Origin: a virus | Direction: 5' to 3' (one strand) | Length of the DNA stretch: 31,079 bases | Virus record (IMG/VR): IMGVR_UViG_3300028925_006759 | Location: 1 to 31,079 of that record | In this document: piece after piece, positions 3,805 to 31,045 of the stretch | How positions within the stretch are numbered: the stretch's first letter is position 1 | How the letters are laid out: each line of letters begins with the position of its first letter | Notes under the pieces: model-generated | Seen by the model: only the letters and a program-made list of their open reading frames with translations | Told to the model about the DNA's origin: nothing | Databases searched by the model: none | Made by a program: the position numbers and the translations under genes

Positions 3805-3822
3805 CTATAGTAAATATACACT
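3805..3822 (-). promoter_or_regulatory. Candidate phage late promoter A
   Basis: On the minus strand the sequence reads AGTGTATATTTACTATAG. The GTGTATA core is shared with four other intergenic sites and starts 50 bases before the ATG at 3771. There is no TTGACA-like box at the expected distance. It sits in the only sizeable gap (72 bases) between the sulfotransferase gene and the next gene. Its continuation after GTGTATA (TTTACTATAG) diverges most from the other sites. Confidence 0.5.
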
Positions 3823-17314: not shown

Positions 17315-17332
17315 TCTACATTATTATACACG
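17315..17332 (-). promoter_or_regulatory. Candidate phage late promoter B
   Basis: The minus strand reads CGTGTATAATAATGTAGA. GTGTATA starts 51 bases before the ATG at 17280 and lies only a few bases after the T-tract of the capsid terminator, so transcription can restart immediately for the fibre operon. There is no -35-like box at 17 bases upstream; that space is occupied by the terminator. Confidence 0.6.
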
Positions 17333-19642: not shown

Positions 19643-20434
19643 TTGGTTATCTCCTATTGAAATTGTAGTGATAATGTCATCTTCATTAATGTTAAAGGCT
19701 TTGCTTTTACTTAAGATGACACTTCTTGGGTTCGCTGGTTTGGATACTAGACCCTTACCAGAGAAAGAAATATTTCTTAAAGCTCTACCTACAGTATATC
19801 CTTCGTACTCACCGCTTCCGCCGTAAGCCCTTAGATGTTTGGTTAAGAACGCCGATGCTTCATCTCTTTTAAGTATTTGATTTTTACCACCAGTGTCTAC
19901 CAGAGCATAGTCAAATCCAGCAAAAAGACATTCCATCGAAACGTACCACTTTCCACCTTCTATTTCAGCAATTATTTGCTGCATCCTATCTTTGTTGTCG
20001 GGATCAACCCAACTGTTATACAAAACGGCTTCAGTTATAATGTCAAAGTTGCTTGGGGTTTCTTCTTCATTAGATGAAACTCTTTTGCCGTCTTTGCCTA
20101 AAACATAGCTTCCCGTTATATGACCTATGATATCATTTTCATCATGCATAAAGTTGAACTGCTTATCTTCAGGAGTATTCCTAGCAGCCCACACTTCACT
20201 CGTGACGAAAACATCATCATTCTTATTCCAACCCGTTGACACTAAGACAGACTCTAAGTAATATAGGTCTAGCTGATCTGGGTTGCTGTTTTGAGCCAAA
20301 ATCTTGTCTAAAGAATCTGACCGTTGTTCGTCGTCTGAGGTAGAAACCGTCGCGACTCCACAGTAAGCCAAAGAAGATTGTTCCTTGACTAATTTGTCTA
20401 CGCCGTCTGTGATTTCTTGTTTGTATATTTTCAT
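18956..20434 (-). CDS. Prohead protease-scaffold fusion protein (492 aa)
   Basis: The longest frame begins at 20461, but that ATG lies inside the GTGTATA promoter motif, so ATG 20434 with AGAGG upstream is preferred. Residues 1-250 look like a prohead maturation protease: FNFMHDENDIIGHITGSYV (93-111) with a candidate His97, and KWYVSMECLFAGFDY (162-176) with candidate nucleophile Ser166. Residues about 265-385 are a long coiled coil (repeated Leu/Ala/Glu heptads), followed by WWDKKKKDDKKDD, then a Glu/Ala-rich acidic tail. The second half is typical of scaffold or core protein. An internal ATG at 19642 probably makes scaffold alone. The gene sits between portal and decoration genes. Catalytic residues are my assignment by pattern. 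Confidence 0.85.
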   Translation of the reverse strand: MKIYKQEITDGVDKLVKEQSSLAYCGVATVSTSDDEQRSDSLDKILAQNSNPDQLDLYYLESVLVSTGWNKNDDVFVTSEVWAARNTPEDKQFNFMHDENDIIGHITGSYVLGKDGKRVSSNEEETPSNFDIITEAVLYNSWVDPDNKDRMQQIIAEIEGGKWYVSMECLFAGFDYALVDTGGKNQILKRDEASAFLTKHLRAYGGSGEYEGYTVGRALRNISFSGKGLVSKPANPRSVILSKSKAFNINEDDIITTISIGDNQMSDNLNLLETQVAGLKQDLASAKEENEALKLATEGAKDKEFASAIEAFEADVSSKQEAIAKLEETIKSTQARIAELEDALAQSQNDLVSSQAKVDEMHEKEVASRRKASLVEAGFEDAEAEESLELYAALSDEAFDAIIAKWWDKKKKDDKKDDKKDDKKEEASVEASEEVAEEADETEAAEEAAEELEEAFEEVSSTEATLVEPAADELQTTRASISEWLSSNVLNK

Positions 20435-20444
20435 ATGTCTTGCC

Positions 20445-20462
20445 TCTAAAAAAGTATACACA
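20445..20462 (-). promoter_or_regulatory. Candidate phage late promoter C (weakest site)
   Basis: The minus strand reads TGTGTATACTTTTTTAGA. It shares the GTGTATA core but begins only 27 bases before ATG 20434, against 50-55 for the other four sites. That would leave a very short leader overlapping the ribosome-binding site. It may be a genuine promoter with a short leader or a chance match in an AT-rich gap. Confidence 0.35.
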
Positions 20463-22614: not shown

Positions 22615-22632
22615 GTTACTTTATTATACACA
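22615..22632 (-). promoter_or_regulatory. Candidate phage late promoter D
   Basis: The minus strand reads TGTGTATAATAAAGTAAC in the 58-base gap between terminase and portal. The GTGTATA core begins 55 bases before the portal ATG at 22576 and directly follows the terminase stop codon. No -35-like hexamer lies 17 bases upstream. It would drive the portal-to-capsid head module. Confidence 0.6.
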
Positions 22633-26050: not shown

Positions 26051-26295
26051 TTAACTGTAGCCCTTATTACTCGTATGTCTGCTTTGATATCTTTACAGAG
26101 TATCCTTGATTCTACCGTATCTTCTTTTTTTAGTATTAGGTGCATCAGCTTATGTACGGACTTGAAGCATGCTTCGTCCGGGTCATACGCCTCTACGAAA
26201 ATTATTGGTAGCTCACTGTTATACTCATATATATTGTATTTAGAAAGCCTAGCTATTACTAGTGTTAAGTCTAGCTCAACTTTGTATATCTTCAT
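26047..26295 (-). CDS. Small hypothetical protein (82 aa)
   Basis: An 82-aa frame with no recognised family. It starts MKIYKVELDLTLVIARL, and has an amphipathic middle (YDPDEACFKSVHKLMHLILKKED) and a short basic C-terminus. Its ATG lies within the last codons of the dehydratase gene (20-base overlap) and its stop overlaps the HNH ATG as ATGA, so its expression is tied to both. Ribosome-binding support is weak, typical of coupled genes. Because the gene fits so precisely in the chain, I consider it real, but the function is unknown. Confidence 0.65.
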   Translation of the reverse strand: MKIYKVELDLTLVIARLSKYNIYEYNSELPIIFVEAYDPDEACFKSVHKLMHLILKKEDTVESRILCKDIKADIRVIRATVK

Positions 26296-27379
26296 TGGTG
26301 TCGTTTTTCATCATGATGTTTACTAGGGCTTGTAAATCCGTTTTTGGTTCCCATCCGAGATTCTTTTTCGCTTTCGTATATCTTCCTTTGAGGTAGTCTA
26401 CCTCTGCTGGTCTGTAGAATTCGGGGTCAATAAATACGAACTCTTCCCAACCACTAATGCCAACATAATTAAAAGCTGCTGATAAGAAATCTTTGATCGT
26501 GTGGGTTGTTCCAGTGCAGATGACATAATCGTCTGGATTGTCTTGTTGTAACATCAACCACATGGCGTCTACGTAATCTCCTGCGTAGCCCCAGTCTCTG
26601 GAAGCTTCTAAGTTACCTAATCTTAATTTGGGGATGCTGGGAGTCGCTTTGGCGTCCGCGAATACTCGTCCTTTACCTAAATGTATGAATTCTTCTGAAA
26701 AGACTAGTGAGGATACGTCGGCGGAACTTTCATATCCGCGTTCGTTTTCTTTTTTCCAAGCGACAAATTCTCCGATCCACTTCGTTATCTTTCTGGTTAC
26801 AAAATTGTCTCCACGACGTGGGCCCTCGTGATTAAATAGTATTCCGGCACTAGCATGAACTCCATAGGCTTCTCGAAATAGTCTCACCATGTAGTGGGCG
26901 GCACACTTTGCTATGGCATAGGGAGATTGCGGTAGAAATCTAGTATCCTCGTTCTGAAACTTTCCAAACTCATCAACATCATATGAACCTCCAAACATCT
27001 CACTTGAAGAAGCTTGGTAGAATTTACACCCTATCTCTAGGTCTACGATTCCTTGTAAAATGTTTAAACAGCCTTTACCCGTGATGTCCCATGTTAGTCC
27101 GGGTTGCTTAAAGGAGACCCCTACATGCGATTGTGCTGCTAAATTGTAGACTTCATCTACGTCACCGTTATTACGTAAGATTCCATATACGCTACTAACA
27201 TCTGTGATGTCTCCTGATACTAAGTTGAAATGTGGAGCATCTAATAGATGTTTTATTCTCTCTGTTGTGTCTACGCTGCTACGTCTCGCGACTCCCACAA
27301 CATCATATCTCTTTTCTAGCAGCAACTCCGCAAGGTGGCTTCCATCCTGTCCTGTAACTCCGAATATAATAGCTTTCAT
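26276..27379 (-). CDS. gmd: GDP-mannose 4,6-dehydratase (with insertion)
   Basis: A 367-aa extended SDR enzyme. ATG 27379 is chosen over 27388 because it makes an ATGA junction with the upstream stop. The NADP loop is GVTGQDGSH (8-15). The active site has ASSSEMFG (123-130) and Tyr154-Lys158 (SPYAIAK). The signature NHEGPRRGDNFVTRKI (183-198) and LGNLEASRDWGYAGDYV (254-270) is typical of Gmd, which makes GDP-4-keto-6-deoxymannose, the precursor of GDP-fucose, rhamnose or perosamine. Between RKITKW and RLGNLE lie about 45 extra residues (roughly 206-248), absent from the canonical enzyme, where the gap is about 15-20 residues. No GDP-fucose synthase or glycosyltransferase is seen in the window. 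Its place inside a packaging operon is unusual. Confidence 0.92.
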   Translation of the reverse strand: MKAIIFGVTGQDGSHLAELLLEKRYDVVGVARRSSVDTTERIKHLLDAPHFNLVSGDITDVSSVYGILRNNGDVDEVYNLAAQSHVGVSFKQPGLTWDITGKGCLNILQGIVDLEIGCKFYQASSSEMFGGSYDVDEFGKFQNEDTRFLPQSPYAIAKCAAHYMVRLFREAYGVHASAGILFNHEGPRRGDNFVTRKITKWIGEFVAWKKENERGYESSADVSSLVFSEEFIHLGKGRVFADAKATPSIPKLRLGNLEASRDWGYAGDYVDAMWLMLQQDNPDDYVICTGTTHTIKDFLSAAFNYVGISGWEEFVFIDPEFYRPAEVDYLKGRYTKAKKNLGWEPKTDLQALVNIMMKNDTNEDIQS

Positions 27380-27963
27380 CCGTTCCACTTATCTCCTTTG
27401 CTTATGTTGTCCACTGCCCACAAGGGTTGTAAATTCGTATAGTTCCAAGCTTCTTTGAGTTTCTCTTCCATGTCTTCACCTGTAAAATCAAATGAAGCAA
27501 GAGGTCTTATGTGATCTACGTGCCACTCTCCGTAATTCTCCCTAGTCATCCCCTCGGTGAATTGCGACTCTAGGTAATCCATCAGTTCTTCTGGAGACTT
27601 ATCGATATAACTAAATGTTCTATCGTTTTTCTTTCTCAACTTTTTTAGACATTGCCACAAGCCGGTTCTCATGCTAGCACATACTCTAAAGGCTGGCTTT
27701 TGTGCGTTTCGGTGGTAACATCTTGAGCTGCGACTCCTTCGTAGTTCAGTATTCACACTGTGAGACTTCCTCTGCTCAGTTATTATCTCTCTATTTTTTT
27801 TGTAGTACTCGCGCCGTTGTGCATTTCTCCGAGGCGCGGTGTCGCGTTCATATTCCCGACAACAAGGCCTGCAATAAGCGTGCTTCTTGTGTGTTCCGCT
27901 ACCGCTGTTAAATTCATCAAGGGGCTTTGCCTCTTTACACTTACTACATGTCTTAGTATCCAT
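27376..27963 (-). CDS. HNH endonuclease with N-terminal zinc ribbon (195 aa)
   Basis: The longest frame starts at 28092, but ATG 27963 follows CAGGA and immediately opens a zinc ribbon (MDTKTCSKCKEAKPLDEF), so I chose it. Residues 6-34 hold two Cys pairs (CSKC and CRPC). The middle is very basic (RRNAQRREYYKKNREII), suited to DNA binding. The C-terminus has the HNH core: EWHVDHIRPLASF (147-159) and NYTNLQPLWAVDNISKGDKW (174-193). This architecture is common in phage homing endonucleases inserted between genes. It is 1 base downstream of the candidate small terminase gene and overlaps gmd by ATGA, so it may be an integrated mobile gene that settled with preserved coupling. Confidence 0.88.
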   Translation of the reverse strand: MDTKTCSKCKEAKPLDEFNSGSGTHKKHAYCRPCCREYERDTAPRRNAQRREYYKKNREIITEQRKSHSVNTELRRSRSSRCYHRNAQKPAFRVCASMRTGLWQCLKKLRKKNDRTFSYIDKSPEELMDYLESQFTEGMTRENYGEWHVDHIRPLASFDFTGEDMEEKLKEAWNYTNLQPLWAVDNISKGDKWNG

Positions 27964-27964
27964 A

Positions 27965-28750
27965 TTAGTCCTGCACCGTATCTGGAGTGAGAAATGGCTG
28001 ATCCACCTGCCCATCCTCATATTTATGAAACACACTGAGTCGCTCTTTCTCTTTCTCCATAGATAATCGCATCTTTTCCATTTCCAACCCATACTGTTGG
28101 GTGAGAGCAGGATTTTGCATAAGATGTGCCACCCATCCCGTGAAGCTCTGCTTGGAATCTTCCAGACGCTTGATTCTCTGCTCTCGCGTCCCCTTCATGT
28201 CCTTAAGCATCGCACTCTTCTTTGTCTGTAGGTCTCGGTAATCTCTATTGAGTGACTCCTGTGCCGCCCTCAGGGCCGCTACCTGCCGCTCTAGGTTAAA
28301 GATCGCATCCACGTCCTGCTGATCCGGGTCTAGCGCCCGCCCCTCTTGCACAAGAATCTCAAACGCACTAATTTGATCTATATTCGATTTATTTTGTTGC
28401 AGGCACCGACTCATCAACAATTCCAACTTAATTACGTCTACAACCTGCAATTCTTCGGTGGGAAACACGTCATCCTTGAACTGATTGATAATTCTGCCCC
28501 AATGGTACTTAAATAGCGAAAGTTCGTCAGGAGTAAACTGCTTATTGAGTTCTACCCAGTAAGGACGCTCTTCTAAATCGTATTCTGCCTGCTCAAACTT
28601 AGAAAGTCCGATTTTCAATTTCTTTTTAATAAAATTGTCTACGGCTGATGGATCACGATCCAAATATGAGGCGATTTCTTCAACTGGGAATTTATCAGCG
28701 TTTTGTGTAATATAGCGCGCTTCAACTTTAGATATTCTACCCCTCTTCAT
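27965..28750 (-). CDS. HTH and coiled-coil protein, possible small terminase subunit
   Basis: A 261-aa protein (ATG 28750; the ATG six bases upstream is too close to AGAGGA, while this one has 8 bases spacing). Residues about 6-44 read as a helix-turn-helix (VEEIASYLDRDPSAVDNFIKKKLKI). A middle region and a long charged coiled coil (about 150-250, rich in Glu, Lys, Arg, Leu) follow. An N-terminal DNA-binding HTH plus helical oligomerisation core is the small-terminase layout, and the gene is in the operon that ends with the large terminase. Its size exceeds many TerS proteins. The alternative is another DNA-binding or structural coiled-coil protein. The link is inference from position and domain type. 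Confidence 0.55.
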   Translation of the reverse strand: MKRGRISKVEARYITQNADKFPVEEIASYLDRDPSAVDNFIKKKLKIGLSKFEQAEYDLEERPYWVELNKQFTPDELSLFKYHWGRIINQFKDDVFPTEELQVVDVIKLELLMSRCLQQNKSNIDQISAFEILVQEGRALDPDQQDVDAIFNLERQVAALRAAQESLNRDYRDLQTKKSAMLKDMKGTREQRIKRLEDSKQSFTGWVAHLMQNPALTQQYGLEMEKMRLSMEKEKERLSVFHKYEDGQVDQPFLTPDTVQD

Positions 28751-29237
28751 AGCCATGTTCCTCTAATATTAGTTGTACAATAAAAAGCACTTCTTCTTTT
28801 CGTTTCTTAGGTACATATACGTCGTGCATTATCTTTAGGTAGTCGGATCTATACTGGGCAGGGAGTTTGACATCTAGAACCCCTTTCATCTGGCGATAGT
28901 CAATATCCTCAATGTATTCATCACGGGTGTCAATTAGATAGTCTTCGTTTGTGAGTTGTCCGGGTTTAGCTATCTTACCCTTTTCTTCTTCATCTTTGGT
29001 AAAGTGATTATCGCGTATGAAGTTCTTGAGGCGATTGGAGAGATGGACGGATAGGAAGTTTTCTAGGGGGCGAGCCTCATCGTAGCGAGGGAGGGCTTCC
29101 ATGCAGATAATAAATGCTTCTTGTTTTAGGTCGTCTCGTGTGTATCCGTGGAATGTATAGCGAGGGGCGATTCGATTGATGACGTTTTCTATATGTTCGA
29201 TTACCTTGGACTCTGTCATGTTGGCGGGTACGTGCAT
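28737..29237 (-). CDS. Sigma-70 region 2 protein, gp55-like late sigma factor
   Basis: A 166-aa protein. Residues 27-77 match sigma region 2: YTFHGYTRDDLKQEAFIICMEALPRYD (27-53, helix 2.1-2.2) and FLSVHLSNRLKNFIRDN (61-77, helix 2.3-2.4), the same layout as T4 gp55 (F.GY....QE..., then a helix ending in basic residues). There is no region 4, which again is like gp55, which reads only a -10-like element. T4 gp55 directs polymerase to late promoters that have a single TATAAATA box. Its ATG overlaps the stop of the fibre-like gene as TAATG with GGGG 7 bases upstream. It is the third gene of an operon with both an early and a GTGTATA promoter. Assignment to region 2 is firm; specificity for GTGTATA is inferred. 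Confidence 0.85.
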   Translation of the reverse strand: MHVPANMTESKVIEHIENVINRIAPRYTFHGYTRDDLKQEAFIICMEALPRYDEARPLENFLSVHLSNRLKNFIRDNHFTKDEEEKGKIAKPGQLTNEDYLIDTRDEYIEDIDYRQMKGVLDVKLPAQYRSDYLKIMHDVYVPKKRKEEVLFIVQLILEEHGYEEG

Positions 29238-30031
29238 TATTTATCCCCACTATCCGAGTGAGTGAGGGTTTTCCATGATTCCCCATCATAAAACTCAAGT
29301 GAGTGCGTCTCAGTATTATATATGAGGGCGCCTTGCTGAGCTGGAGGCCTTTGGCTGCTTGTGTAGCAGTCAGGCATGAGGCGAATGTAGGGAGTGGAGA
29401 CAAAGGCGTTCTTGCGAGAGAGATCCAAGCGGCGTACCCTGAGAGTCATCTGTTTCTGAGTGGATTCTAGTGCAGAGAGGGCGGAATTATCAAACTCAAT
29501 GATATCCTTTAGTTCATTTTTACCCATGGGCTGGACTTCGTCGTGCACTCTTCCCAATACCGTGTTTTCTTCAAGCGTAACAGGGAAGGGTTTGCCAGAA
29601 TCTTCTGAGGTGATGACGGAGAAGGGCGTGGCGAGGGCTTCTGATAGATTTGAAGGGGTGACGGAGAATACTCGTAGGTAGGAGCGGGCACTGAACGAAA
29701 TGGGTTTTTGACCAATACTGTATAAATTGTCGTCATCCGTGTCTCCGTGAGCTAGTGGAGTATCTCTTTGTAATAATGTGTGTCCATCAACAGTGGAAAT
29801 GTATCCAATGCCTCGTTCGTATCGTACAGCAACACCTTCGGAGATTTCTTGTATTAAATACAGAAACCTGTAGTCAAATCCGATAACTTTACTAATCAGA
29901 GTATCTTCGGAAGCATCTGGTAGGTGGATGTCGTTGTTTTCTTCCAACAACTTAGTTCCAGACAGCTTAACGGCGAACCTGTCGTGTACGGTGGCTCCTT
30001 CGAACGCACCATGTTTGAATTTATTGTGCAT
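29237..30031 (-). CDS. Virion-like protein with fibre-tip motif (264 aa)
   Basis: A 264-aa all-beta-looking protein. Near the C-terminus is PAQQGALIYNTETHSLEFYDGESWKTL, a motif found at the base or tip of many phage fibre and tail proteins (G.LIYNT.T..LE.YDG..W). A middle part is rich in Ser, Thr and Val, with VDGHTLLQRD and a second module around FSVITSEDSGKPFPV. It starts at ATG 30031, which overlaps the small upstream gene's end. A structural protein at the head of an operon containing a sigma factor is unexpected, since fibre proteins are normally late. Alternatives: a head fibre or a tail-tube-linked adaptor. No catalytic motif seen. Confidence 0.6.
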   Translation of the reverse strand: MHNKFKHGAFEGATVHDRFAVKLSGTKLLEENNDIHLPDASEDTLISKVIGFDYRFLYLIQEISEGVAVRYERGIGYISTVDGHTLLQRDTPLAHGDTDDDNLYSIGQKPISFSARSYLRVFSVTPSNLSEALATPFSVITSEDSGKPFPVTLEENTVLGRVHDEVQPMGKNELKDIIEFDNSALSALESTQKQMTLRVRRLDLSRKNAFVSTPYIRLMPDCYTSSQRPPAQQGALIYNTETHSLEFYDGESWKTLTHSDSGDK

Positions 30032-30179
30032 CGTTTGTTTCTTGCTCTTCCTTGTCTTCTATAAGCGAAGCTAAGCACTTATCAGCAGCTTCTAACTCAT
30101 CAGTTACTTGCTCTTCGAGTTTAGCAGTTGCTTTACATACTGTTGTTGATTCTATCTTGTGAGTTTGTTTGTCTTTCAT
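30021..30179 (-). CDS. Small charged helical protein (52 aa)
   Basis: A 52-codon frame too short for automated listings, beginning MKDKQTHKIESTT and ending EEQETNDAQ. It is highly charged and helical (KLEEQVTDELEAADKCLASLIEDKEEQ), with two cysteines. It is the first gene of the minus-strand operon and overlaps the next gene's start by 11 bases. A GTGTATA promoter candidate begins 55 bases upstream, matching the spacing at other operon starts, which supports the start codon. The function is unknown; a small sigma or polymerase partner (as T4 gp33 is to gp55) is only a speculation from its position. Confidence 0.6.
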   Translation of the reverse strand: MKDKQTHKIESTTVCKATAKLEEQVTDELEAADKCLASLIEDKEEQETNDAQ

Positions 30180-30217
30180 TGCTATTACCTTAATCCAATT
30201 GTTCTATAAGTAATCTA

Positions 30218-30235
30218 ACTGTAGTATTATACACT
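30218..30235 (-). promoter_or_regulatory. Candidate phage late promoter E
   Basis: The minus strand reads AGTGTATAATACTACAGT. GTGTATA begins 55 bases before ATG 30179, the same distance as at the portal gene. It has no -35 box. It would be the sigma operon's own GTGTATA promoter and so allow feedback. Confidence 0.6.
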
Positions 30236-30404
30236 CCGCAGACGGAAAAAGCACAGTTTTATCGTCAGAAGAAGCAAAAAGGGGCTAAGGGGGAGGATTG
30301 GGTAATACATATGATTGGACTGTTTGGTGTTATGTTTGAACCACCCCGGCTTTGGGGAGAGGAGTAAGTACTTAACTATATGAAGATAAAACCCCCTAGT
30401 GACC

Positions 30405-30433
30405 ATTATACAATATTTACAATGATATGTCAA
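30405..30433 (-). promoter_or_regulatory. Exact sigma-70 consensus promoter, leftward
   Basis: The minus strand reads TTGACA, a 17-base spacer, then TATAAT, i.e. the ideal E. coli-type sigma-70 promoter. It points at the sigma-factor operon, whose first start codon lies about 225 bases downstream. It is an early-type promoter; the long leader contains promoter E. Confidence 0.88.
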
Positions 30434-30611: not shown

Positions 30612-30640
30612 TTGACAAATGACGATATATATTATATAAT
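30612..30640 (+). promoter_or_regulatory. Exact sigma-70 consensus promoter P1, rightward
   Basis: TTGACA, 17 bases, then TATAAT on the plus strand. The sequence just downstream (AAGAACTTAAGTAGTTAAG, 30641-30659) covers the expected start site, contains an imperfect palindrome, and is nearly repeated after promoter P3. It drives the plus-strand gene that begins at 30684. Confidence 0.92.
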
Positions 30641-30683: not shown

Positions 30684-31001
30684 ATGACAAATAATAATAA
30701 TAATAACCAGATTACACTTGACAACACAACTAACATAGTATATAATACTAGTATGACAAACAACAACACTAATGGAGTAACCAAGACAATGACCAACCTA
30801 ACACACGACGTTCGAGTAATCAAGCACATCGGCACTAGCTACGATGTATACGCTAACTTTACTACAGTGCAAGATGCACTGGATTACATGCGACGTATGG
30901 GCTTCGACATCGATACTTGGTATATCGTTGATGCTAACGACAATCGTTTACGATTGAATGCTCAAAATAAACTAGAAGTATTTCATAGTTTAATTGGTTA
31001 A
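30684..31001 (+). CDS. Small early protein (105 aa, or 70 aa from an internal start)
   Basis: The only plus-strand gene. The 105-aa form begins at ATG 30684 with an Asn/Thr-rich stretch (MTNNNNNN, then MTNNNTN). The folded-looking part starts at about residue 36: VRVIKHIGTSYDVYANFTTVQDALDYMRRMGFDIDTWYIVDANDNRLRLN. ATG 30684 has only a weak AAAGG site 11 bases before it. Two other in-frame ATGs exist: 30753, right at the predicted start of promoter P2 transcripts, and 30789, preceded by GGAG. Because P2 lies inside the first codons, the 70-aa form from 30789 may be the main product. No family is recognised. Small proteins under strong sigma-70 promoters in phages are often host-takeover factors, but this is only inference. 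Confidence 0.65.
   Translation: MTNNNNNNQITLDNTTNIVYNTSMTNNNTNGVTKTMTNLTHDVRVIKHIGTSYDVYANFTTVQDALDYMRRMGFDIDTWYIVDANDNRLRLNAQNKLEVFHSLIG
30718..30746 (+). promoter_or_regulatory. Exact sigma-70 consensus promoter P2, inside the ORF
   Basis: TTGACA, 17 bases, TATAAT on the plus strand, within codons 12-21 of the longest frame. Transcription would begin near 30753, at an in-frame ATG, giving either a leaderless message or one read from ATG 30789. A perfect consensus inside coding sequence suggests the true gene starts later. Confidence 0.8.
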
Positions 31002-31016
31002 TGTTAAAGTTTACCC

Positions 31017-31045
31017 TTGACATGTGCCGATAATAATAGTATAAT
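31017..31045 (+). promoter_or_regulatory. Exact sigma-70 consensus promoter P3, rightward
   Basis: TTGACA, 17 bases, TATAAT on the plus strand, 15 bases after the stop of the plus-strand gene. The downstream 19 bases (AAGAACATAAGAAGTTAAG, 31046-31064) match those after P1 at 17 of 19 positions. It must serve a gene beyond the right edge. Confidence 0.92.

Follow-up and report, generated by a model that had tools for sequence, protein, structure and literature searches.

The stretch of DNA analyzed here (the window) is a 31,079-base record of an uncultured virus, whose large genes lie on the minus strand. This strand carries the virion genes, the terminase and, at its right end beside a divergent block, an operon that includes a sigma factor gene. 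The operon comprises four overlapping minus-strand genes: a 52-aa gene (30021..30179; orthologue OG101), a 264-aa gene (29237..30031; OG14), a 166-aa sigma gene (28737..29237) and, directly after it, a 263-aa gene (27965..28756; OG12). We compared the window with six relatives, i.e., five whole or near-whole genomes and one 43.7-kb close relative, and found OG14 and OG12 in 7/7 of these genomes. OG12 encodes an HTH and a coiled coil, matches phrog_323 at its N-terminus (E 2e-4) and is small-terminase-like by position; we regard it as a candidate small terminase or sigma partner. It always follows the sigma gene, with a mean identity of 69%. In nearly all genomes examined, the 166-aa gene sits between OG14 and OG12 at the head of the packaging operon, the exception being G002, where two genes are inserted before the sigma gene. 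Between sigma/OG12 and the terminase, the window holds sugar-nucleotide-dehydratase-like and HNH-like genes (26276-28092, minus strand), an interval whose content differs among the relatives.

Promoters and a conserved element at the sigma operon

As the initial annotation had proposed, two promoters face this operon: an exact sigma70-type promoter and a GTGTATA site. The first reads TTGACA-N17-TATAAT (30433-30405, minus strand; 12/12 positions, 17-nt spacer). Three further perfect matches, at 30612..30640, 30718..30746 and 31017..31045, lie on the plus strand, divergent from that of the operon, so that all four perfect sites of the window fall within 30.4-31.05 kb, clustered in the early block adjoining the sigma operon; shuffled windows gave none. 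The promoter at 30433-30405 had no counterpart matching at least 11/12 positions in the relatives, the nearest (80% identity) included, and is therefore lineage-specific.

The GTGTATA element (GTGTATAATAC) lies at 30228..30234 on the minus strand, inside the interval of 30218-30235 first assigned to it, and its position is kept in the relatives. Among the 51 loci listed, 44 have GTGTATA ahead of OG14, ~0.7-1.1 kb before the sigma start; in the remaining seven, GTGTATTAT occupies this place or, where genes are inserted, lies farther upstream. On a stricter recount, 50/50 non-redundant loci had a site of the GTGTATA or GTGTATTA type ahead of the sigma operon. Moreover, at these sites a host-type -35 box is enriched: TTGNNA stands 16-18 nt before the TATAAT inside GTGTATAAT at 14/53 sigma-operon sites versus 1/36 other GTGTATA promoters (Fisher p 0.0024), with a spacing of exactly 17 nt in 12 of the 14, and [TC]TGNNA at 24/53 versus 1/36, p-values for this enrichment being optimistic because the sites were thinned for similarity yet are not independent. 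The perfect sigma70 promoter is thus peculiar to the window genome, yet other clades carry TTGNNA beside GTGTATAAT, and the proposed arrangement of an early plus a late promoter on the sigma gene therefore recurs, with different anatomies. Host access to the sigma operon would accordingly be a recurring feature, reached by different routes. As to the -35 region itself, the sigma promoters of the window's clade (30245-30275 in the window, minus strand, and nine relatives) carry TGTG(C/T)NTTTT ~20 nt before GTGTATA, a place taken in other clades by TTGGAA or CTGTCA.

Upstream of the operon's GTGTATA site, and reaching it, is a conserved non-coding DNA element (30207..30392, minus strand, core ~30275-30392; nhmmer E 1e-42 in the window). 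It occurs once per genome (84 distinct copies), and its pattern, GGGGGGTTTTATCTT..GAAAAA.CGGGGTGGTTCA..ACAAT..ATGTATTACCCAATCCTCCCCCATCGCCCC, is found at L091, L108, L110, L125 and about 60 more loci, persisting across relatives with about 50% sigma identity. An RNA leader was rejected as its identity, the 84 distinct copies giving no covariation, the structures proposed by RNAalifold being weak for either strand, and Rfam yielding no match. Iteron repeats around the element were rejected as well, with candidate words rare and scattered genome-wide. The conserved 110-bp element may possibly be an origin, a packaging site or a regulatory site.

GTGTATA as a promoter class

GTGTATA is a genuine, well-conserved promoter class that lacks a -35 element. 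Across the window and the six relatives, it tops all 7-mers for strand bias within 120 nt upstream of genes (73 sense versus 6 antisense), with Shine-Dalgarno words ranking behind it. Strong enrichment is limited to the exact word (70:4), and single-base variants, those within the GTG included, are near background. A logo of 76 sites reads T/A-rich, n, GTGTATAAT, n4, TAG, with the TAG at the expected start site and no enrichment at the -35 position. A k-mer and dyad search for other promoter classes outside the GTGTATA genes returned mostly purine-rich words of the ribosome-binding type.

Within the window, the promoters are found on the minus strand before the portal-position gene 22576-20489 (22625..22631; same place in G002, G003 and G009), the prohead-position gene with its ATG at 20434 (20455..20461; kept in 7/7), gene 17280-16807 (17325..17331; kept in 7/7), where a terminator-like hairpin (17371-17340) directly precedes the promoter, and gene 3771-3433 (3815..3821; same gene in G002, G003 and G009). 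Two virion-block genes have GTGTATA in 7/7 genomes and three further genes have it in 5/5 genomes that carry them, in all cases at nearly fixed distances; phylogenetically, the sites of these relatives do not count as independent. Could this placement be a matter of chance or a coding artefact? The raw count in the window (6 copies versus 4.7 expected) is indeed not raised. However, five of the six copies precede a gene start by 20-60 nt in the proper orientation (P ~1.5e-8 under random placement), and this placement, together with the strand bias, the logo, the orthologous positions and the 50/50 sigma-operon loci, contradicts such an explanation, which is almost certainly wrong.

It is also conceivable that the host reads these sites, with GTGTATAAT acting as a -10-only sigma70 promoter or being recognized by an alternative host sigma factor, given that it contains TATAAT and that some sigma-operon copies come with a -35. 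We consider this very improbable: the GTG is as invariant as the TATA, variants within the GTG are near background, the spacing misfits TGnTATAAT, the GTGTATA promoters elsewhere lack a -35, and these phages encode sigma factors of their own. A phage RNA polymerase was likewise rejected as the reader, as no single-subunit-type or beta'-type gene was detected, a negative that is weak because the PF00940 control for the former type matched nowhere.

Two phage sigma factors as candidate readers

The 166-aa protein matches Pfam Sigma70_r2 (PF04542) with an E value of 3e-7 (30.5 bits versus a cut-off of 24), and the domain is above cut-off in 8/8 relatives. In an AlphaFold2 model (pLDDT 76), residues 8-78 match region 2 of E. 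coli sigma70 (VIA Z 9.8, with an rmsd of 1.8 across 70 residues). When the last 64 residues are modelled on their own (pLDDT 86), they form three helices, and the two highest-ranking matches are structures of region 4 of M. tuberculosis SigL (Z 6.7/6.5), weak scores that lie below the tool's reliable level. Since this domain best matches a sigma region 4, if weakly, the initial description of the protein as region-2-only is doubtful, and the models suggest that it is probably a region 2 followed by a short, degenerate region 4.

The same annotation had called the protein gp55-like. Its region 2 and the -10-only, late-type promoters agree with this; membership of the gp55 family does not follow, as phrog_234 (the T4 late sigma) gives only a weak match (E 0.079 across 50 residues) and PHROG 351 is the nearest named one. 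The T4 gp55 entries 7D7C/7D7D do not appear among the structure-search matches listed. On inspection of 39 aligned sequences, the C-termini are charged (e.g., EEHGYEEG), and the hydrophobic sliding-clamp-binding motif is absent from them. The best PDB sequence match of the protein is region 2 of S. aureus SigB (E 7e-4). SigB reads GGGTAT as its -10 element and, because this resembles GTGTAT, having SigB as the best relative of solved structure counts for the 166-aa protein as the GTGTATA reader; SigB differs in that its region 4 is complete and it recognizes a -35 element. A tblastn search (1e-5) of 50,697 phage records found no relatives of the 166-aa sigma, yet over 280 loci with relatives occur among IMG/VR viral contigs.

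The relatives encode a second sigma factor, OG23 (157-161 aa), which has both regions 2 and 4 (L085:8954-9427, L095:18463-18936 and L120:2895-3377 on the plus strand; L106:12549-13034 and L115:17624-18103 on the minus strand). It shares a block with SSB-like genes and others that resemble nucleotide-metabolism genes. A profile comparison between the two sigmas yielded nothing, and choosing between them by presence or absence failed: OG23 is found in every genome whose contig spans its region, genomes seemingly without it end there, and so the two always co-occur. OG23 appears to belong to the same regulon. About 1.2 kb upstream of it, inside OG20, GTGTATAAT is present at 12/12 OG23 loci (once as GTGTATAGT) and in five genomes (e.g., G001:27752-27760), where it is fixed at the codon level as Val-Tyr-Asn; the Val codon is always GTG, although GTG makes up merely 9-25% of Val codons. 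This constraint suggests that the site is probably an internal promoter and that OG23 is therefore probably a GTGTATA target too.

Because a second sigma is present, we infer, rather than observe, both the assignment of the motif to the 166-aa protein and its self-activation. Under the alternative assignment, OG23 would read GTGTATA and the 166-aa sigma would be its target, acting later or elsewhere, in a cascade without self-activation. OG23 does have both sigma regions, co-occurs with the motif and lies behind the conserved OG20 site with its fixed GTG codon. Yet GTGTATA promoters lack a -35, as opposed to the bipartite promoters of a phage sigma with region 4 (7-11 gp47; PMC8948821), and the recognition segments of OG23 vary far more than the motif does: its -10-reading segment has a mean identity of 65% (versus 43% overall). 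The corresponding regions 2.3-2.4 of the 166-aa sigma reach 91% (versus 56% overall). In addition, the OG23 internal site lacks a neighboring -35 of the sigma70 type like those found beside the 166-aa gene. We therefore find OG23 an unlikely reader. The points that favor the 166-aa protein are circumstantial, namely its conserved -10-reading segment, the sigma70-type sites beside its gene and the single-element promoters, which in phiEco32 belong to a sigma without region 4 homology (PMC8948821).

The two sigmas might instead act jointly, one contacting the -10 and the other the flap or upstream DNA, as T4 gp55 and gp33 do. In line with this, both genes lie within the GTGTATA regulon and region 4 of the 166-aa protein looks truncated; however, the genes are not adjacent, the interaction is hypothetical, and no sliding clamp (PF02916, PF00712) was matched in 8-9 relatives, whose contigs are possibly incomplete. 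Such joint action seems to us quite unlikely.

A proposed early-to-late switch and its known counterparts

The reading we favor, and think more likely than not, is that the 166-aa sigma alone reads GTGTATA and drives the late genes, being started by the host and then amplifying itself. In this scheme, host RNA polymerase with sigma70 would first transcribe the early block along with the sigma operon, the latter weakly or early, entering it through the separate perfect promoter at 30433-30405 in the window genome and perhaps through a -35 box 17 nt before the TATAAT contained in GTGTATAAT in other clades. The 166-aa sigma would then replace sigma70 on the host core polymerase, its region 2 recognizing the single element GTGTATA(A/T)T, and switch on both the virion genes and the operon that encodes it. 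The resulting positive feedback would commit the phage to late transcription. Since GTGTATA precedes the sigma gene as well, the phage probably starts its sigma via host polymerase and self-amplification follows; the timing and the feedback are inferred. A more specific and tentative version, which we hold possible but doubtful, is that the promoter of the sigma operon acts as a dual-read box. Its single TATAAT would be read first by sigma70, using a -35 placed 17 nt away, and afterwards by the phage sigma, as GTG plus TATA. Together with the 110-bp element, this box would form the switch from early to late transcription in a large family of uncultured phages with two interlocked sigmas.

The closest known systems are phiEco32 gp36, phage 7-11 gp47 and T4 gp55, and late transcription here would work like that of phiEco32 gp36 and T4 gp55 (PMC8948821, PMC2988020, PMC7892883). 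The sigma factor gp36 was described as having no region 4 homology, its promoters read tAATGTAtA and start transcription 6-8 bp farther downstream, and in phiEco32 sigma70 reads the early genes and has a predicted promoter at the gp36 gene (PMC8948821). The present promoters are likewise single elements without a -35, as the 76-site logo indicates, but their motif has GTG rather than AATG, the genomes reach 174 kb, the sigma gene heads the packaging operon and a second sigma is present; given the negative tblastn result, the 166-aa sigma has no close relative among the phage records searched. Gp47 of phage 7-11 contains region 4 and reads bipartite promoters, GTAAtg-(16)-aCTA, and positive feedback of this late sigma on its own transcription has been proposed (PMC8948821). 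Self-feedback is thus proposed in both systems, which differ in gp47's region 4 and bipartite promoter. T4 gp55 is a small region-2 sigma that reads -10-only promoters with an AT-rich start region before late virion genes and binds the sliding clamp through a hydrophobic C-terminus (PMC2988020). Both T4 and these phages place -10-only promoters before virion genes, with GTGTATA here replacing the 8-bp TATA box of T4; on the other hand, gp55 acts with gp33 and gp45, whereas the 166-aa sigma has a charged C-terminus and a weak phrog_234 score, with no clamp detected.

The novelty first claimed for this system has to be divided. No GTGTATA promoter of this kind was found in a full-text literature search of open-licence papers. 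New features are the motif itself and the phage family, the composite promoter at the sigma operon, the presence of a second sigma within that regulon and the conserved DNA element of 110 bp; self-activation of a sigma had already been put forward for phage 7-11. Taken together, the well-conserved late-promoter system is real and the self-activating sigma is plausible. They supply a code for late promoters, together with a candidate master sigma, in widespread, uncultured large phages (>280 contigs), whose sigma has no relative among cultured phage records, and open a testable general question: by what means does a phage initiate a sigma switch and then lock it in? Being invariant, the motif lends itself to a clean in vitro assay, and allows anyone to annotate the late operons in these genomes.
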